A DNA stretch of 47,540 bases from a virus. The notes below the pieces were generated by a model. That model was not told the origin of the DNA, did not search any database, and worked only from the letters and a program-made list of their open reading frames with translations. Location: positions 1 through 47,540 of the IMG/VR virus record IMGVR_UViG_3300031857_014260; one strand, 5' to 3'. Shown here in pieces: positions 5,782 through 27,366 of the stretch. How positions within the stretch are numbered: position 1 is the stretch's first letter; the number at the start of each line of letters is the position of its first letter. Position numbers and translations under genes: made by a program.

Positions 5782-5805
5782 TAAAACAGGGTCCGAAGAC
5801 CCTGT
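5782..5805 (-). terminator. Rho-independent terminator of the tmRNA gene
   Basis: A perfect 8-bp stem with a TTCG tetraloop (5798-5805 with 5786-5793 on the minus strand) is followed by TTTTAC. It lies immediately after the coding piece of the permuted tmRNA and would end that transcript. Confidence 0.85.
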
Positions 5806-5844
5806 AACTATTTTTGGTAATAAGGCATAGCTGCCCCAGCATGG

Positions 5845-5880
5845 CTATCAAGCAGCCATTGCGTAGTAACTGTCGTTTGC
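5845..5880 (-). other. tmRNA tag reading frame (ANDSYYAMAA)
   Basis: The resume codon GCA at 5880 begins ten codons, ANDSYYAMAA, ended by tandem stops TGA TAG. With the tRNA-borne Ala the tag would be AANDSYYAMAA. It is close to the gammaproteobacterial AANDENYALAA but ends AMAA rather than ALAA. It should mark proteins from stalled ribosomes for ClpXP or ClpAP; the Leu-to-Met change is next to the C-terminal residues that ClpX reads. Confidence 0.9.
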
Positions 5881-5912
5881 AGTTATAGTTTTGCTTCTTT
5901 TACGGAGATCGC

Positions 5913-6062
5913 CTACCGTGTAGATCCTTTGAATACTTGCTCGTCAATCGATACTATTTCCGGCCCATCAATAAGATTCTCTTTGAACTCTTCCAACCAT
6001 TCGTTAAATAACGAATAGTTCCACAAGTTTAAGGGAGGTATATAATTATCCCATTGATCCAT
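5913..6062 (-). CDS. Candidate small ORF overlapping the tmRNA intervening segment and coding piece
   Basis: A 49-codon ORF starts at ATG 6062, 12 bases past the CCA end of the acceptor piece. It crosses the whole intervening segment and ends inside the coding piece upstream of the tag. It reads MDQWDNYIPPLNLWNYSL and onward: acidic, with three Trp and a normal protein-like composition. The upstream AAAAAGA is a poor Shine-Dalgarno. An ORF this long can arise by chance at this GC content, so its status is open. If translated, ribosomes would compete with tmRNA processing. Confidence 0.35.
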   Translation of the reverse strand: MDQWDNYIPPLNLWNYSLFNEWLEEFKENLIDGPEIVSIDEQVFKGSTR

Positions 6063-6171
6063 AAAAATCTTTTTGGTGGACCGGCCGGGTACCGCCCCCG
6101 GGTCTTGTCCAATCTTTCTTCTTAGGCGTTGTACTACAATATCTTCCTACCTTTAGAATAACCTAAAGATA

Positions 6172-6285
6172 TTATTTCTTGCGAGATATCCGGATATTTT
6201 TATTGTACAAATATGTAGTGAAACAAATGCTTAAAATCACACTAACTATTAATACTACTATCCAGATTATTAATGACTTGATCAT
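6172..6285 (-). CDS. Tiny single-pass membrane protein
   Basis: The 37-codon ORF begins MIKSLIIWIVVLIVSVIL, one long hydrophobic segment, followed by a short basic tail (NKNIRISRKK), predicting N-out/C-in topology. It directly precedes the tmRNA acceptor piece and follows another tiny membrane protein with only a few bases between them (stop 6288, start 6285). The function is unknown. A holin-like, toxin-like or accessory membrane role is possible but unsupported. Confidence 0.6.
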   Translation of the reverse strand: MIKSLIIWIVVLIVSVILSICFTTYLYNKNIRISRKK

Positions 6286-11449: not shown

Positions 11450-12898
11450 TTAATTTCCTATGTTATACTGTTGTTCTATCATCATCTGATGTAGAACATC
11501 GCTCTTACCATTTAAAAAACGTTCAGCTCTAGCATTATCTACTGTACGCTGTCCCTTATAAATTTCTTTAGGTGTGTAAAACTGTCCATCGCGCATACCA
11601 TTCATGTACAACTCAAATCCTTGTGGTGTTTGTGCTATTGCGGCAATGTCCATGTTGCCGGCTGCTGTATTTGGTTGTACATTTTTATTTACAGTTGGCC
11701 CTGTAGTTTGAGTGGATGTATCTGCTGGTTTAGGATTAGAACTTTGATTTATAGAATTTAAAGGTCCTGATTGTGTAGAACTACTCGGCTGAGTAACCGT
11801 CTCTGAAGTACCTGTGTCATTTCTTTTTTGTACAGCTTGTTCTCTTAAAATAGATTCTACTACACTTTGTTGTTCAATTACCGATTGTAACAAACTCTGT
11901 TCTTGAATATTTTTAATTATACTTTGTTCGCGTTTTTCATTTTTAGCAATAGTGTTTAATGCTATAGAATTAGACATTGATATTATCTGTTGTTGCTGTT
12001 TTTTATTTTCTTTTGATGATTCTTTTGTTACAGTAGGAACGCCATCAGGAGCACTTAATTCTCCTGAAGTTGTTAATTCAACACCACCGGCATTTTGCAC
12101 AGTAGGATCTGTACGTGTACTATCAGGTGCTAGATTTATATTAGTATAACCAGAAGCTGCGTTATAAGTTACAGTAGGTGTACTGGCAGTATTTGAATTT
12201 AGAGATGCTACAAAGGCAGCGCCGTACCCTGAACAACTAGGACTATACAAAGGATTAGAAACGCAAGGATCTACACTATAATTTAGACTAAGACTGAAAT
12301 TCATAAATTCTGGCCCGTAGTGTCCTGCCCAATATCCAGAGTCTCGACTAGTAACTGCTAATTGTATATTGCTTACTGCCGATAAAGAGTAGGGATTGTC
12401 ATATGTTCTTGTTCCAGAGAATGAAGTCCAATTTGGAATATGATAACCATAATTATATCTGTCATTAACTAATAATGAACCTGTATTACTATAGAGATTA
12501 ACATCAACGTAGGTGATAGGATCAAACCCGCCTGGTTGCTGTCCGTTGATGTTAGAATTTTTTACACTCCAGGAATAATTATAACCATTAATTTGTAAAC
12601 CTGTGCCAGCATTGGCTAATGCTTGATTAATGGCTATAGTCTGACTTAGAGTATATTGGCCATAACTAAAAATAATTTGCCCGGTACTGGAATCGTAACC
12701 TGGACAAGGACCACCCGATGTTCCTCCCCAGAAAGATCCACTCTGGTTGGTATAACAGCCGGACCAGGCATTTCCAGTATTACCTACTAAATTATTAGTA
12801 GTATAGACCTGTGAAGGATCTAATTCCTGAGCGTTAGAACAGACTGAAAAGAAGGATGCCAAGTAAAGCACCCCAACCAGTTTTCTTATAGAAATCAT
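11450..12898 (-). CDS. Large exported protein with Gln/Ser-rich coiled coil
   Basis: The start chosen is ATG 12898, which gives a signal peptide MISIRKLVGVLYLASFFSV...SNA; the open frame upstream to 13057 is only overlap with the previous gene. The 482-residue product has an N-terminal region of about 250 residues rich in Tyr, Ser, Asn and Gly with likely beta structure and several Cys, a Gln-rich coiled coil (about 310-375), a low-complexity Ser/Thr/Gln/Pro linker and a conserved-looking basic C-terminus. It overlaps the preceding surface-protein gene by 65 bases. Placement on the host surface or on the virion are both possible. Confidence 0.7.
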   Translation of the reverse strand: MISIRKLVGVLYLASFFSVCSNAQELDPSQVYTTNNLVGNTGNAWSGCYTNQSGSFWGGTSGGPCPGYDSSTGQIIFSYGQYTLSQTIAINQALANAGTGLQINGYNYSWSVKNSNINGQQPGGFDPITYVDVNLYSNTGSLLVNDRYNYGYHIPNWTSFSGTRTYDNPYSLSAVSNIQLAVTSRDSGYWAGHYGPEFMNFSLSLNYSVDPCVSNPLYSPSCSGYGAAFVASLNSNTASTPTVTYNAASGYTNINLAPDSTRTDPTVQNAGGVELTTSGELSAPDGVPTVTKESSKENKKQQQQIISMSNSIALNTIAKNEKREQSIIKNIQEQSLLQSVIEQQSVVESILREQAVQKRNDTGTSETVTQPSSSTQSGPLNSINQSSNPKPADTSTQTTGPTVNKNVQPNTAAGNMDIAAIAQTPQGFELYMNGMRDGQFYTPKEIYKGQRTVDNARAERFLNGKSDVLHQMMIEQQYNIGN

Positions 12899-13640
12899 CA
12901 CTCTTTGGTTCCTCGTATTTTGGCCACTTGTTAGTATTTTCGTTCCATGCCACGCGAGCCTGCTCGCCAATTGCACCCTCGTAGGGACAAGGTGTACCAG
13001 CATTCCACATAGCATCAAACACACGACGATCTTGACACATGATAGACACCGCAGCAACTTTCATTCCCATATCATAAAGTGTCTTGGCGTTCTTTAATCT
13101 TTCGCAATTCATATCACGTATTGTACCTCCACTACTGATACCTAGTATCTGTGTTTGTACAGCACCACTAGTTCCAGTAGTACATAAGTCATTATTGCCG
13201 CCACTCATCATTGCCGGAGCAATAGCAGTCGGCGGAGGTTGTATAACCTTCTGTGTTATATTACTATCATTGATATTACGATTAGTCATATCACCAGAAT
13301 TAACATTTGTGTTTATATTATTACTGGTTGTAGAATTAATGTTACGATTAGTCATATCACCAGTGTTTACATTATTGTTATTAAATGTTTGAGTTCCACT
13401 GTTTATATTGTTATTTGTATTAACACTTGTACTGGTATTTTGATTTATGTTAGTATTAGTGCTTGTACTGTTAACTGTAGTATCATTAACATTATTACTT
13501 GTACTAGTGCTATTACTATTGACCGTACTGGTACTAGTGCTAGTGCTATTTGTATCTACTAGTGTGCTACTATCATATGTCTGGGCCAAAGACCCAGACA
13601 TAGCAGCCATCAATGTTATTATTGTTATTTTGTTCTTCAT
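12834..13640 (-). CDS. Exported Asn/Thr/Ser-repeat protein with C-terminal membrane segment
   Basis: The 268-residue product has a signal peptide (1-19), then about 110 residues of nearly pure Asn, Thr, Ser, Val and Ile with a duplicated GDMTNRNIN unit, then a Cys-containing globular region (about 150-240) and a hydrophobic C-terminus (WGALLGILLFSLF). The repeats recall amyloid-like or adhesive surface proteins, but the curlin spacing is not seen. It is the first gene of the 10462-13640 group, and the large exported protein overlaps its end. Confidence 0.75.
   Translation of the reverse strand: MKNKITIITLMAAMSGSLAQTYDSSTLVDTNSTSTSTSTVNSNSTSTSNNVNDTTVNSTSTNTNINQNTSTSVNTNNNINSGTQTFNNNNVNTGDMTNRNINSTTSNNINTNVNSGDMTNRNINDSNITQKVIQPPPTAIAPAMMSGGNNDLCTTGTSGAVQTQILGISSGGTIRDMNCERLKNAKTLYDMGMKVAAVSIMCQDRRVFDAMWNAGTPCPYEGAIGEQARVAWNENTNKWPKYEEPKSDDFYKKTGWGALLGILLFSLF
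13276..13363. repeat. Two 22-bp direct repeats within the Asn/Thr/Ser-repeat gene
   Basis: Identical 22-bp copies lie at 13276-13297 and 13342-13363, 66 bp apart and in frame. They encode the duplicated GDMTNRNIN unit. Confidence 0.85.
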
Positions 13641-15140: not shown

Positions 15141-15821
15141 TTAGCGTATTTCAGGGAACAGACAATCCTGTATAAAAATACGTACATCTTCTTCATTAAG
15201 CCCTAAACTTGCCATTACTTTAGGAGTATGCGGATTCTGTTTTTGATTTTCGCAGTAGTAGTTTTGATTACTAGTAGTATTTTTATGTGTAAAATTAGTT
15301 TCTGCTACGGCACTTAGATAATGTTTAATACTAAGATTAGCAAAATTAAAAATTTGAGCAAGTTCTTGATCGTCCTGGACATTACCTGCTGCAACCATAC
15401 TGCCAGTAAAAATACGTTCAGCCCAGTCGGGTAATTTTCTAGTCTTGTTCCATTGCAGTTTAGCAGCTTCGCTGGCAAACCAATCTATTAAAGGATGCTC
15501 ATGATCTCCTGCTGGGCTAAAGTCATGAAAACAACCAGTAATTTTGTGTTTACCGGCAATCACATCAAACCCATAGATTGGGGCAGGATTATGAAGATGC
15601 GGGAAAATACAACAATGCATCATCCAAAGACCTTTTGTATCTCTAGCATCAACTACATCTATGTGTGCTCTGCGATAACGATCGCTATTCCATACGCGAT
15701 TGACCCAGCCAGGCTGATTAAAACGATCCATACCAGGCTCATGTATTTCTGTTCCTGTTTCATTAAATTTTTCTTCTAATAAATTTTGTATACCTATTAA
15801 TGTATCCCATACATTATTCAT
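15141..15821 (-). CDS. pcyX: Ferredoxin-dependent bilin reductase (PcyX-like)
   Basis: The 226-residue product fits phage bilin reductases in length. HCCIFPHLHNP and IYGFDVIAG place His69 and Asp86 at the positions of PcyA His88 and Asp105, the catalytic pair. ITGCFHDFSP and a C-terminal YYCENQKQNPHTPKVMASLG are family hallmarks. Retention of the His argues for PcyX or PcyA over PebS. PcyX reduces biliverdin to phycoerythrobilin in marine phage metagenomes linked to alphaproteobacteria. It overlaps the heme oxygenase gene that would supply biliverdin by 8 bases. The exact product is inferred. Confidence 0.85.
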   Translation of the reverse strand: MNNVWDTLIGIQNLLEEKFNETGTEIHEPGMDRFNQPGWVNRVWNSDRYRRAHIDVVDARDTKGLWMMHCCIFPHLHNPAPIYGFDVIAGKHKITGCFHDFSPAGDHEHPLIDWFASEAAKLQWNKTRKLPDWAERIFTGSMVAAGNVQDDQELAQIFNFANLSIKHYLSAVAETNFTHKNTTSNQNYYCENQKQNPHTPKVMASLGLNEEDVRIFIQDCLFPEIR

Positions 15822-16353
15822 CTTTGACCAACGCTTTCATAATTTTGATAGCCCACTGAAAAGCGACTCGGGCTTCGTCACCTAGGTCATCTGTGAGCTC
15901 TGCTCTAATTGCAGTCTTTAAATTTTCTGCATCTTTAAATTGATAGAATTTTCCTGACCCTGGACATTTTTTGGCAATAATCTGTCCGCCAAATAAATCT
16001 CCCATATGTCTGCAATATAAGTGAGCTTTAACTAGATGCTTGTTATCACTATAACTTAAAGCTAAAAGATATTGATAGTATTCGATTGTTTCAGGTAACC
16101 ATTTTAAGTTATGATTAGGTCCTACAAGTTCAATGCAGTCTTGATAAATTTTATGTGCTCGTTCGATATCAGGTAAGTTTTTAAGCATACCTTGACCTTT
16201 AGCTGCTACTTCGATGCCGTTATAAACAAGAACCATTTGCCAAAGATAGTTTGCATATTCTTCTTTAGTAAATGATCCAGTTACAAGTTTTTTAGCAAAG
16301 ATAGTTCTTTCTGCATCTGCGTGTAGATCTTTGGTTATTTCTCTAAGACTCAT
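15814..16353 (-). CDS. Heme oxygenase
   Basis: The 179-residue protein has the proximal heme ligand in KDLHADAE (His11) and the distal-helix signature HLYCRHMGDLFGGQ (about 111-124) with its glycine-rich bend. It should open heme to biliverdin, releasing Fe(II) and CO. It overlaps clpS upstream by 4 bases (ATGA) and the bilin reductase downstream by 8 bases, so the two pigment enzymes are co-translated. In a non-photosynthetic host the benefit may be iron release, heme removal or making a phytochrome chromophore. Confidence 0.9.
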   Translation of the reverse strand: MSLREITKDLHADAERTIFAKKLVTGSFTKEEYANYLWQMVLVYNGIEVAAKGQGMLKNLPDIERAHKIYQDCIELVGPNHNLKWLPETIEYYQYLLALSYSDNKHLVKAHLYCRHMGDLFGGQIIAKKCPGSGKFYQFKDAENLKTAIRAELTDDLGDEARVAFQWAIKIMKALVKDE

Positions 16354-16655
16354 TCTTCCTCTTCCATTTTTGCTTGGAGTGGGAATCCATTAGCTCTAGC
16401 AAGATTTATAGTTTCTACTAATTTTATTTCAGCGATTTCATAACAATAGCTGCCTGCAACTCCCTTACCAGCCTCGTGTACTTCTATCGTAATTTCTTTC
16501 GCTCTCTCTATACTATGTTTGTAAATTTCCATTAACACAGAAATTACAAACTCCATCGGAGTTTGATCGTCATTAAGGAAAATGACTTTCCAATTTTTTG
16601 GCTCTGTAATCTTAACAACGATTTTCTTATCTAATTTTACATCTGAAATAGCCAT
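16350..16655 (-). CDS. clpS: ClpS adaptor protein
   Basis: The start chosen is ATG 16655 because GGAG lies just upstream; an upstream start at 16691 would overlap the preceding gene. The 101-residue protein has KVIFLNDDQTPMEFVISVL, with the NDDxTPMEFV signature that binds N-degron residues, and the C-terminal CYEIAEIKLVETINLARANGFPL of the ClpS core. ClpS hands N-degron substrates to ClpAP and inhibits degradation of ssrA-tagged proteins by ClpA. It is in the dnaK/hsp20 operon and the same genome encodes a tmRNA, so protein turnover is a clear theme. Confidence 0.92.
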   Translation of the reverse strand: MAISDVKLDKKIVVKITEPKNWKVIFLNDDQTPMEFVISVLMEIYKHSIERAKEITIEVHEAGKGVAGSYCYEIAEIKLVETINLARANGFPLQAKMEEEE

Positions 16656-16674
16656 ATTATAATCTCCATTTTGT

Positions 16675-17550
16675 TTAAGGTAAAGTACCACTTTTTAAAT
16701 ACTTAGCAAAGCACAAACGATTAGTATTGTTACCACGATTATACATGGGGTATCGAAAAAGGTCAATACCAAATATAACACTATTACTTGGTTCAATCCC
16801 TAACTCGTGACAAAATTTCTTTTGCTGTATAGACCAAGTAGCCCAATTGTGATCAGGACTGAACTTCATTAATTCGATACCTAGTAATGCTCCGAACTTA
16901 TTAGTATAATTTGCTTTGTTTGATACAAACAGACTATCGTCGTCATCTACTCTACTACACCGCATTCCTATTCTATAGTGTGCAACTGGAAAACTTTTAG
17001 ATAGACTAAAGGTTATATCTGTAATACAACTATGATTAAAATTAAAATCTATATTTGCACATATACCAAAAAATGCACAATCTACTAATACTGGTACAGA
17101 TAACTTAGAACATAAAGCAAGTAATGCTTCTGTGCTGTCGTGCTTGTTACCAGTGTCGCTAAATGGTAGACTAATAACTACTGCATCGTTTTCTTCAATA
17201 TCTAAATTTTCAATAAACTTCCAATTAGGAAAATAATTTCTCCATGCTAATTGATGATACAAATATTCTCCAGGGAAACATCTAAATCGTCTAGTGTTGT
17301 TTTTTAAATAAAATTTATCAAACGCTTCAGTTGTACCATTTGAATATGCAGTTATAGGAAAATTATCTAATCCTTGGATTTTATTAAACTTCGTAGATTT
17401 TATCCATTGAACATAACTGTCTAAAAAGACTTTAGTTACGGAGTCGTCTCTCATGTTTTCTAATGCTATTAGAGAGGACGATTTTACGAATTCTTCCATT
17501 TGAGGATCATTAATAGCCCATGCTCCTCCGTAGGGTAAATTTTTAGACAT
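16675..17550 (-). CDS. PLP-dependent aminotransferase-like protein
   Basis: The 291-residue fold type I protein shows YSNGTTEAF (about 69-77) at the phosphate-binding loop, VLVDCAFFGI (Asp157) for the pyridine nitrogen and FSLSKSFPVAHYRIGM with Lys185 as the likely Schiff-base lysine. It is shorter than typical aminotransferases (about 380 or more), so part of the small domain is missing or reduced. It is coupled to the 2OG oxygenase gene before it with a 1-base overlap. The two may act on one amino-acid-derived substrate, which cannot be identified here. Confidence 0.75.
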   Translation of the reverse strand: MSKNLPYGGAWAINDPQMEEFVKSSSLIALENMRDDSVTKVFLDSYVQWIKSTKFNKIQGLDNFPITAYSNGTTEAFDKFYLKNNTRRFRCFPGEYLYHQLAWRNYFPNWKFIENLDIEENDAVVISLPFSDTGNKHDSTEALLALCSKLSVPVLVDCAFFGICANIDFNFNHSCITDITFSLSKSFPVAHYRIGMRCSRVDDDDSLFVSNKANYTNKFGALLGIELMKFSPDHNWATWSIQQKKFCHELGIEPSNSVIFGIDLFRYPMYNRGNNTNRLCFAKYLKSGTLP

Positions 17551-18287
17551 TATCTATTTGATCTGACGTCGTAAGGTTCTCTAGTGGTTTCATCTATCCA
17601 ATAAAGACTTCTGTGTGGTAATTCTTCGGGAGTAGAATTACTTTTAAAGTAGAAGAGTCTTAGCCCGTCTCGACTTACGTTTTCAGGACAGGTTAATGGA
17701 GTAGGATGCCCGTGAAATAGTTTTGAATGATAGTTCCATAACAGTAGTCTGTTCGGTTTACATTCAATTTTGTGTACTAGATTTTCTCTTTTGAAATCCC
17801 AAAATTCAAGTCCGCCGTGCCAAGAACTATCCCATTCTGGATGGATGTATAGTATTAAACTAAGACATCTATTTAAGTGTAATTCTTCATTCCAATTGAA
17901 GTCTGTGTGAAGTTTTAAACTATGTCCAGTATAACATCTCATTAGGCCAGCACCGATAAGATGCGGATCCGGTATAACTTTGTTAATACCAGTTAATTCT
18001 TCTAGCCAACTGATAAATTCAGAACTATTAAGATTTAAAGTAAGGTCTCGTATTGTGGGGCAATAATCATGAAGCTTGTTACATTCTTCCATAAAGCTTC
18101 CATTCCTAGTAAAATGTGTCCACATATACTTTGGAATTTGATTGATTTCTGCTTGTACTTTTTTTAGTAATTCTTCTGGTAAGAAATCATCGAAAAATAG
18201 CCAGGGAACAGGAGTCCCCTGGCTATAGTCCATTGAATAGTCTTTGGACTTAAACTTTTTTGTTATTTGTTCTATATAGTGCATCAA
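17550..18287 (-). CDS. 2OG-Fe(II) oxygenase (prolyl-hydroxylase-like)
   Basis: The 245-residue protein has SLKLHTDFNW (His127, Asp129), KLFHGHPTPL (His192) and SRDGLRLFYF (Arg210 or Arg206), with HGGLEFWD between them. This matches the 2OG-FeII_Oxy_3 group that includes prolyl and ribosomal-protein hydroxylases. It is translated directly after hsp20 in the chaperone operon and just before the PLP enzyme. It is the clearest 2OG enzyme of the four in this window. A protein substrate is plausible but unproven. Confidence 0.85.
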   Translation of the reverse strand: MMHYIEQITKKFKSKDYSMDYSQGTPVPWLFFDDFLPEELLKKVQAEINQIPKYMWTHFTRNGSFMEECNKLHDYCPTIRDLTLNLNSSEFISWLEELTGINKVIPDPHLIGAGLMRCYTGHSLKLHTDFNWNEELHLNRCLSLILYIHPEWDSSWHGGLEFWDFKRENLVHKIECKPNRLLLWNYHSKLFHGHPTPLTCPENVSRDGLRLFYFKSNSTPEELPHRSLYWIDETTREPYDVRSNR

Positions 18288-18719
18288 CTATTTAATCGTA
18301 ATTAGTCGAGGCTTTAACTCTTCTGGAACGATTACGTTGATCTTGATTTTTAACATGCCGTTAACCACTTCGGCATCTTGAACTACATGATGTTCCATGA
18401 GTGTAAATATACGCTCAAAGCTTCTTGCAGCCAATCCTCTATGAACATATTTAGAGGCATCTTCTTCGTTTATTTTGTTTCCTCTAATGATAAGTTCATT
18501 TTGATTTACTTCGACAGTGATGTCATCTTTATCGAAACCGGCTACTGCCAATTCAATTTCATAATGACTGTCGTCGTGTTTTAGAACATTGTATGGTGGA
18601 TAGTTCGAAGTTTGATTTGCAAACCTTGATTCGTAGTTATTAAAAATACGATCAAATCCAATTAATGCTCTATTAAGTTGAGCAAGTGCTGTGGTGTCTA
18701 GTCTTTGTAACGAGTTCAT
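18288..18719 (-). CDS. hsp20: Small heat shock protein (Hsp20/IbpA family)
   Basis: The start is set at ATG 18719 (MNSLQRLDTTALAQLN), which has a strong AGGAG Shine-Dalgarno; the longer frame to 18770 runs through the dnaK-hsp20 spacer hairpin. The 143-residue product has an alpha-crystallin domain with YEIELAVAGFDKDDITVEV, a GLAARSFERIFTL segment and a C-terminal LKPRLITIK. It is an ATP-independent holdase that should pass clients to DnaK, whose gene lies just upstream in the same operon. Hsp20 is common in marine T4-like phages. Confidence 0.95.
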   Translation of the reverse strand: MNSLQRLDTTALAQLNRALIGFDRIFNNYESRFANQTSNYPPYNVLKHDDSHYEIELAVAGFDKDDITVEVNQNELIIRGNKINEEDASKYVHRGLAARSFERIFTLMEHHVVQDAEVVNGMLKIKINVIVPEELKPRLITIK

Positions 18720-18749: not shown

Positions 18750-18797
18750 TGTGCGGCCCCACCCGGGCACCGCACATAGTAAGAGCTAACTGTTAGC
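18750..18797 (-). other. Hairpins in the dnaK-hsp20 intergenic region
   Basis: A GC-rich stem (TGTGCGG/CCGCACA, 18770-18776 with 18750-18756) and a smaller GCTAAC/GTTAGC hairpin at the dnaK stop occupy the gap. There is no clean T tract, so they may be RNA processing or stability elements that set the dnaK to hsp20 ratio. Confidence 0.5.
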
Positions 18798-20673
18798 CCT
18801 TAACTTCTGTAAATTCAGCATCTACTACAGCATCGTCTGAAGATTTTTTAGATCCCTCAGTTTTAACTTTTGCTTCTTGGATGACTTGACTAGCATTTAC
18901 TAGATCATTTAGCGTACTATCAATGGCTGCTTTGTCATCGCCAGCAACTGCGGCTTCAACTGAATCAATTGACTTTTTAATTGTATCTTTTTGTTCTTCG
19001 GTTAGAACTGACTCAACTTCGGTCATGTCTTTTCTAATTTGATGAACAATATTATCAGCTGCATTTCTAGCTGTAATTAATTCTTTTTTCTTATTATCTT
19101 CTTCTGCATTAGCTTCAGCATCTTTGATCATTGCATCAATTTGGTCTTTAGATAATCCAGAATCAGACTTGATGGTAATTTTGTTTTCTTTGCCTGTATT
19201 TTTATCTTTAGCATTGATATTCATAATGCCGTTGGCGTCAATATCAAAGGTAACTTCAATTTGTGGCATACCACGCGGCGAAGGTGCGATACCTTCTAGA
19301 TTAAATTCCCCAAGCAATTTATTGTGCTGTACAAAATCTCGTTCTCCTTGGAAGACTTTAATTGTAACAGCAGGTTGATTGTCTTCTGCTGTGCTAAAAG
19401 TTTGACTGGCCTTAGTTGGGATAGTTGTATTCTTTTGTATTAATTTAGTCATTACTCCGCCTAGTGTCTCAATACCAAGACTCAATGGAGTAACATCTAG
19501 TAAGAGAACATCTTTGCGATCGCCTGCTAAAACACTTCCCTGAACAGCAGCACCAACTGCAACTGCTTCATCAGGGTTAACATCTTTGCGTGGTGCTTTA
19601 CCGAATAGTTTTTCAACTTCTTCTTGCACCTTAGGCATACGTGTTTGACCACCAACAAGAATAACTTCGTCAATATCAGCAGCAGTGATACCTGCGTCTT
19701 TGATTGCTTGACGGCAAGGTGCTAGACTACGTTGAATTAAATCCTCAACTAGGCTTTCTAATTTACTACGAGTAATTTTAATATTGAGATGCTTAGGTCC
19801 GTTCGCATCAGCAGTAATATAAGGAAGGTTAACATCTGTTTGTGCGCTATTAGATAGTTCAATCTTCGTGCGTTCAGCTGCTTCCTTTAGACGCTGTAAT
19901 GCCATAACGTCTTTGCTTAGATCAACACCCGACTCTTTCTTAAATTCAGAGACTAGGTAATCCATGATGCGATTATCAAAATCTTCACCACCTAAGAACG
20001 TGTCGCCATTAGTGCTTAGAACTTCAATTTGTTTGTCTCCATCAACATTAGCAATTTCAATAATACTAACATCAAATGTACCACCGCCTAAATCATAGAC
20101 AGCAACTTTACGATCCTTGTTATTTTCTTTATCAACACCATAAGCCAATGCTGCTGCTGTAGGCTCGTTAATAATACGCAAAACTTCTAAGCCAGCAATC
20201 TTACCAGCGTCTTTGGTTGCTTGGCGTTGACTGTCGTTGAAGTACGCAGGCACGGTGATAACTGCTTGGGTAACTTCGCTACCTAAATAGTCCTCTGCGG
20301 TCTTCTTCATCTTGCGAAGAACTTCTGCTGAAATTTGTGGAGGTGCTAATTCTTTATCGTTGGCTCTTACCCAAGCATCGCCGTTCTTTGATTCCATAAT
20401 TTCATATGGCATTAATTCGATGTCTTTTTGCACTGCCTGTTCTTGGAACTTACGTCCAATTAAACGCTTAGATGCATAAATTGTGTTTTTGGGATTTGTT
20501 ACTGCTTGTCTTTTAGCTGACGCACCGACAAGAATCTCATCGTTAGCATATGCTACAATACTAGGTGTAGTACGAGCACCTTCTGAGTTTTCAATTACTT
20601 TGGGGGTTCCGTTTTCGATGACTGCTACGCAGCTATTGGTAGTACCTAAATCGATACCGATGACTTTGCTCAT
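18793..20673 (-). CDS. dnaK: Full-length Hsp70 chaperone DnaK
   Basis: The 626-residue product is collinear with bacterial DnaK. It has [14 protein letters not shown] at the start, [27 protein letters not shown] and the linker [19 protein letters not shown], then a complete substrate-binding domain and an acidic C-terminal tail ending DAEFTEVKG. All ATPase motifs look intact. No DnaJ or GrpE gene is nearby, so host co-chaperones would be used. A Shine-Dalgarno (AAGGAG) precedes the start and GATAAATAAA lies 78 bases upstream. Whole-length DnaK is unusual in a phage; it heads an operon with hsp20 and clpS. Confidence 0.97.
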
Positions 20674-26663: not shown

Positions 26664-26993
26664 TTATACCCTAAAAGATTCTCCACAACCGCAATGATCT
26701 CTTGCTTGAGGATTATTAAATTCAAAACCTTCATTTAGACCTTGACGTTTAAAATCAATTTCCATTCCTTGCAAATACGGCAAGTTTTTTGGACTTACAA
26801 AAATTTTAACTTCTCGATCTTCAAACAAATGATCTGTAGGGTCAACTTCATCAACATACTCAAGGGTATAGGCTAGTCCAGAACAGCCTGTTGTCCTAAC
26901 ACCAATTTTGATGCCAATACCTACTCCTCTTTTTTCTAAATATCGTTTAATTTTATTAGCGGCGGTATTAGTAACTGAAATATTATCAAACAT
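26664..26993 (-). CDS. iscA: Iron-sulfur carrier IscA/ErpA family
   Basis: The start is set at ATG 26993 (MFDNISVTNTAANKI); the longer frame overlaps iscU further. The 109-residue product has the three conserved cysteines: Cys37 in RTTGCSGLAY, and Cys101 and Cys103 in DHCGCGESF. It should carry Fe-S clusters or iron from the scaffold to apoproteins. It overlaps the end of iscU by 8 bases, so the two are co-translated. Likely clients include the radical SAM enzyme and other Fe-S proteins. Confidence 0.93.
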   Translation of the reverse strand: MFDNISVTNTAANKIKRYLEKRGVGIGIKIGVRTTGCSGLAYTLEYVDEVDPTDHLFEDREVKIFVSPKNLPYLQGMEIDFKRQGLNEGFEFNNPQARDHCGCGESFRV

Positions 26994-27366
26994 TATGTTT
27001 GGCCTTGTAATCAGCAATCGCAGATTTTATTGCATCTTCCGCTAATATTGAACAGTGAATTTTAACTGGAGGTAACGCAAGCTCCTCCGCGATTTGCGTA
27101 TTTTTAATAGCAGACGCCTGCTCGAGAGTTTTACCTTTAACCCATTCCGAAACCAGCGAACTACTTGCAATCGCCGATCCGCAGCCATAAGTTTTGAATT
27201 TGGCATCTGTAATTATCCCTTCGTCAACTCGTATTTGAAGTTGTAGCACATCACCGCAAGCAGGTGCGCCAACTAATCCTGTTCCTACTCTAGGATCATC
27301 CTTATCTAGTTTGCCTACATTTCTAGGGTTTTCGTAGTGGTCTATAACTTGATCACTGTATGACAT
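26986..27366 (-). CDS. iscU: Iron-sulfur cluster scaffold IscU
   Basis: The 126-residue product is full length. The cluster ligands are present: Cys37 and Asp39 in GAPACGDV, Cys62 in TYGCGSA and Cys105 in KIHCSIL. The LPPVK motif (98-102), the recognition site for the HscA/HscB chaperones, is intact, so the protein should engage host Isc machinery. It starts within the end of the alpha/beta hydrolase gene and overlaps iscA. No cysteine desulfurase gene is in the window. A phage IscU is unusual and would sustain cluster assembly during infection. Confidence 0.95.
   Translation of the reverse strand: MSYSDQVIDHYENPRNVGKLDKDDPRVGTGLVGAPACGDVLQLQIRVDEGIITDAKFKTYGCGSAIASSSLVSEWVKGKTLEQASAIKNTQIAEELALPPVKIHCSILAEDAIKSAIADYKAKHNV

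Follow-up and report, generated by a model that had tools for sequence, protein, structure and literature searches.

Why phages of bacteria that lack phycobilisomes should make phycobilins is acknowledged to be an open question (PMC11480375). It is raised again by two adjoining genes in a 47,540-base IMG/VR virus record, an incomplete fragment that was analysed at full length and is called the window here. A heme oxygenase gene (hemO, 15814..16353, minus strand) is followed by a bilin reductase gene (pcyX, 15141..15821, minus strand), the end of the first and the start of the second sharing eight bases (15814..15821, minus strand). An earlier reading of the sequence alone had located both open reading frames and their overlap exactly. 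Phage hemO–pcyX pairs outside cyanophages have already been published, in pelagiphage Mosig and by Wegner et al. 2024 (PMC11480375), and the window pair is a further case. What goes beyond the published cases is that, in many phages, the two genes come as a cassette, both together or not at all, and occupy one constant position behind clpS. Our best reading, to which we give roughly even chances, is that in a T4-like phage of a proteobacterial host hemO–pcyX drives heme turnover and the bilin serves as a redox or biliverdin sink, not as an antenna pigment.

The 179-residue HemO is of the HO-1 type. It matches PF01126 (E 5.4e-19; 69.2 bits against a cut-off of 23) and, in a PDB search, many heme oxygenase structures. 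Its conserved columns retain the proximal histidine (His11) and the GDxxGG helix (Gly118, Asp119, Gly122 and Gly123). The 226-residue reductase matches the ferredoxin-dependent bilin reductase (FDBR) family PF05996 above cut-off (E 3.2e-14). Its best solved relative is PcyX_EBK42635 (PDB 5owg; E 2.1e-71, residues 4-224), followed by cyanobacterial PcyA (E 2.7e-14). Alignment to 5owg and 16 relatives places Asp55, His69 and Asp86 of the window reductase on the same three residues of PcyX. His69 and Asp86 also align with the catalytic pair of PcyA, as the sequence-only reading had said in favouring a PcyX-like enzyme, whereas the hallmark glutamate of PcyA (Glu76, position 55 in PcyX numbering) is Asp in the window protein. 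Asp55 has been named as the PcyX-specific residue that sets PcyX (yielding the pink pigment phycoerythrobilin, PEB) apart from PcyA (yielding PCB), and the FDBR of phage CB_2, which has no Asp55, is reported to make PCB and not PEB; the role of residue 55 in setting the product was inferred there from a small number of enzymes (Wegner et al. 2024, PMC11480375). Homology and Asp55 together suggest PEB as the product of the window reductase. Compared with its relatives, pcyX has a dN/dS of about 0.05-0.14, indicating purifying selection, and the values for pcyX and hemO against close relatives are mostly 0.03-0.14. Given this selection and the long run of co-directed genes, the two are not chance reading frames.

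Two phylogenies were calculated. In a FastTree phylogeny of 150 sequences, PebS included, the window reductase lies inside an 84-leaf clade in which every leaf carries Asp55, His69 and Asp86, and PebS falls far outside. In an IQ-TREE phylogeny of 57 rows, with PebS left out, phage FDBRs are split from cyanobacterial and cyanophage PcyA with support of 100/99. The companions of the window enzyme are thus phage FDBRs and the PcyX that has been characterised, and cyanobacterial PcyA and PebS stand apart from it. This placement, the 5owg match and the three residues argue that PcyX-type is the correct name. PebS identity was considered and rejected, since the FastTree phylogeny gives no clustering with cyanophage PebS, the outcome that the sequence-only reading had named as refuting its assignment. 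The same trees bear on the idea that the pair, like the pigment genes of cyanophages, serves light harvesting. HO and FDBR genes do occur in cyanophages, but the window reductase does not fall with the PcyA or PebS of cyanophages, the tmRNA is of an alpha- or betaproteobacterial type, and a phycobilisome-family search of 31 records found no antenna gene. Nor did the scanned window proteins reveal any gene for a photosystem, an antenna or a lyase, in agreement with the earlier inspection. Already contradicted by the reductase trees, light harvesting is hardly credible here, and both the non-cyanophage context and the improbability of such a role, as first proposed, hold up well.

The tmRNA is an ambiguous guide to the host. 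It is permuted (two-piece; 5782..6181, minus strand; tag ANDSYYAMAA), was missed by ARAGORN and was detected by Rfam models. Beta and alpha models were both scored on 30 records, and for the window they are nearly tied (beta_tmRNA 89.8-99.8 bits, alpha_tmRNA 88.5 bits). Clear beta-type scores are common among the relatives (154 versus 52 and 144 versus 31 bits are two examples), whereas for G002, the nearest large relative, the alpha model comes out ahead (62.7 versus 40.5 bits). Mosig, whose recorded host is SAR11, also leans alpha (67.6 versus 50.7 bits). A DNA search with the tmRNA against phages found nothing. A firm betaproteobacterial host was dropped because of the near-tie and the alpha leaning of G002; the alphaproteobacterial host that the tmRNA had first been taken to indicate was likewise not confirmed, the beta model scoring slightly above alpha. 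OM43 phage Melnitz has an alpha-type tmRNA, and tmRNA need not match the host (PMC9004378). A cyanobacterial host is unlikely.

The pair is part of a larger conserved block. Directly upstream of hemO, with a 4-base overlap, lies a ClpS-type N-end-rule adaptor (16350..16658, minus strand; PHROG 27368, E 1.5e-23). Beyond it, both supported by synteny, are an Hsp20 small heat-shock protein (18288..18719, minus strand; PHROG 432) and a DnaK chaperone (18793..20673, minus strand; called DnaK from its sequence, PHROG 22485 carrying no function name). A tblastn search of 92 loci with the window proteins detected HemO in 88, ClpS in 84, Hsp20 in 83 and DnaK in 80, and the order is DnaK-Hsp20-ClpS-HemO-PcyX on one strand. 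Between Hsp20 and ClpS the window has two inserted genes (16675..18284, minus strand), for a 291-residue protein and a 2OG-Fe(II) oxygenase (PF13640), which occur only in contigs near-identical to the window. The 291-residue protein (16675-17550, minus strand) has no Pfam or PHROG match and by eye resembles a fold-type I PLP enzyme.

HemO was found in 111 loci, with ClpS upstream in 110. An FDBR follows in all 102 that have downstream sequence; the other nine end too soon, and no locus with at least 2 kb of room has HemO without an FDBR. Starting instead from DnaK, and taking loci with at least 4.5 kb downstream, 35 have the full block, 12 have DnaK-Hsp20-ClpS with neither HemO nor FDBR, four have none and no locus has HemO or FDBR singly. 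Such searches are biased towards sequences close to the query and include many near-identical contigs, and the proportions are valid for this phage group and do not count independent events. In the empty-site phages that were examined, unrelated genes come after ClpS. Being always paired, HemO and FDBR behave as one cassette and one evolutionary unit in the slot behind ClpS. Across loci L001-L080, HemO divergence is decoupled from that of PcyX: where PcyX identity is 72-88%, that of the accompanying HemO ranges over 39-91%, and hemO seems at times to have been exchanged independently inside the fixed slot.

Within this one ClpS-HemO slot, residue 55 of the FDBR is mostly Asp, Glu in about 20 sequences, and otherwise Ser, Asn or His. 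Sequences with Glu55 branch within the phage FDBRs and not within cyanobacterial PcyA. If Asp or Glu at this position sets PEB against PCB, the product has changed while slot and partner stayed constant, and PEB itself seems not to be strictly kept. The E/S/N/H variants may also differ in function. Such variation suggests that bilin reduction, and not one chromophore, is what is kept, and it is mainly for this reason that we doubt a role requiring one specific chromophore. This weighs on the proposal that a host protein, such as a phytochrome or bilin-binding globin (BBAG), uses the bilin as chromophore or ligand, or that a host bacteriophytochrome is blinded when biliverdin is removed. In E. 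coli, HemO together with PcyA from phage CB_2 yielded a Cph1 phytochrome that was functional (PMC11480375), and BBAGs of non-photosynthetic bacteria bind such bilins (PMC10151467). However, none of the 31 phage records (the window and 30 others) has a PHY domain or a phycobilisome-family match (PF00502) over cut-off; the three PF00502 matches, all below cut-off, lie within frames of 756-2305 residues. By PF00502, no bilin-binding globin of the kind seen in pre-PcyA/BBAG clusters was found. FDBRs are also rare in bacteria, occurring in three of 369 genomes of Shewanella's class, with the centre genome counted among the three. The supply of a bilin to a host phytochrome, suggested earlier, finds no support in the phage records, which have no PHY domain. 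A host bilin-binding protein is a conceivable partner of the phage bilin, but we judge this explanation distinctly improbable.

The pcyX gene has been called phage-only. Cultured Shewanella surugensis DSM 17177 has hemO and then a truncated pcyX-like gene (74 residues, then stops; L093, 9453-10225), with an apparently open FDBR elsewhere (L230). Another genome of the class, G385, has three FDBR genes (L229, L232, L233), which could reflect cyanobacterial contamination or real acquisition. No PcyX was found on plasmids.

Another explanation is that the cassette is kept for iron. HemO would then draw on host heme to supply the iron proteins of the phage, namely ribonucleotide reductase, 2OG-Fe(II) oxygenase and Fe-S scaffolds, and the only task of PcyX would be to remove biliverdin. 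The window does encode NrdA/NrdB-like, 2OG oxygenase and IscU/IscA-like proteins, a ferrochelatase gene and several genes for 2OG-Fe(II) oxygenases adjoin the Mosig pair, and an iron role is discussed in PMC11480375. Yet HemO alone would suffice to release iron, and in the 102 loci with downstream sequence it is never found without an FDBR. AlaS (5-aminolevulinate synthase) is present in 15 of 33 related records; it would feed heme synthesis and so consume iron. Iron release alone, one of the options raised at the outset, fits less well for these two reasons, although the iron-using phage proteins keep it a serious rival; we rate it as unlikely but by no means negligible.

AlaS in related phages is consistent with sustained heme flux. 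Weighing against a sink, no TIGR01821 match was found in the incomplete 47.5 kb window fragment, and AlaS is also absent from the nearest larger relative. The window fragment accordingly does not contain the three-gene hemO-pcyX-valaS arrangement with AlaS near the pair. Of 15 DnaK-anchored records, 12 lack an FDBR altogether; AlaS was not found in these 12, several of which are short fragments. In the viral contigs L202 (3820-5672), L212 and L191, AlaS is followed directly by PcyX with a 4-8 base overlap (4 bases in loci such as L202 and L212) and no HemO adjoins.

We return to the sink reading. Heme oxygenase would open the heme ring, as is the function of its family, giving biliverdin IXalpha and setting iron and CO free. 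No ferredoxin (Fer2) was found in the 17 phage records searched, so the electron donor would have to come from the host, and PcyX would take four electrons from host ferredoxin to reduce biliverdin to phycoerythrobilin. The cassette, inserted as one unit behind clpS in a dnaK-hsp20-clpS block, would drive heme turnover during infection, with biliverdin cleared in the form of a reduced bilin that acts as a redox or antioxidant sink. A parallel exists in animals, where biliverdin reductase serves heme oxygenase in this way. Such a role fits the constant pairing of HemO and FDBR, the variation tolerated at residue 55 and the presence of AlaS in related phages.

A wider proposal can be put forward only tentatively: the slot would be a widespread phage heme-flux module in non-photosynthetic hosts, with AlaS in some phages and ClpS-HemO-FDBR as the fixed part, whose reduced bilin, of unconstrained identity, acts as a redox or biliverdin sink or as a small-molecule effector, and whose ClpS may steer proteolysis of host glutamyl-tRNA reductase. 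Clp proteases (ClpAP, Clp) control this reductase in Salmonella and plants (PMC5801465, PMC7966870). By this analogy ClpS and HemO might be functionally coupled, but the 12 empty-site relatives keep ClpS without HemO or FDBR. Natural comparisons for separating the iron, specific-chromophore and sink explanations are offered by the strict pairing of the two genes, by the relatives with an empty site and by the D/E/S/N/H series at residue 55 in one slot.

Among 50,697 phage records searched, only Mosig (Pelagibacter phage EXVC030M) has close relatives of both HemO and PcyX. As in the window, its PcyX directly follows HemO with overlapping ends, its host is non-cyanobacterial, and its reductase, like EBK42635/5owg, has Asp55, His69 and Asp86. 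Identity to the window proteins is 52% for PcyX but only 29% for HemO, and the oxygenases and ferrochelatase stand upstream of the Mosig pair where the window has ClpS, Hsp20 and DnaK. The hemO-pcyA/X-valaS cassettes of Wegner et al. 2024, CB_2 among them, also place hemO beside pcyA/X in aquatic phages (PMC11480375); they differ from the window, which has no AlaS, and about half of the related records have AlaS elsewhere. PcyA of cyanobacteria and cyanophages shares the FDBR family and the His/Asp pair, but has Glu at 55 and forms a separate clade. PebS of cyanophage P-SSM2 is a single-enzyme PEB synthase from a phage, as PcyX of the window would be, but is very distant in sequence, has Asn at the position aligned with His69 and comes from a phage with a cyanobacterial host. 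No description of a ClpS-anchored hemO-FDBR cassette was found in the literature searched, which did not extend to the original PcyX papers (Ledermann 2016, 2018).

Three further loci of the window, all on the minus strand, have counterparts in related phages. Overlapping genes for IscA/ErpA-like and IscU-like Fe-S scaffolds (26664-27366) are kept in about 25-31 related loci. An OprP-type phosphate-selective porin beside a PstS-like phosphate-binding protein (112-2612) makes up a phosphate-uptake pair, with 85-97% identity in related phages L008 and L009. An Asn/Ser/Thr-rich, secreted-looking protein (12834-13640; PHROG 20531) has 58-75% identity in other loci near the block and is possibly curli-related, as in pelagimyophages.
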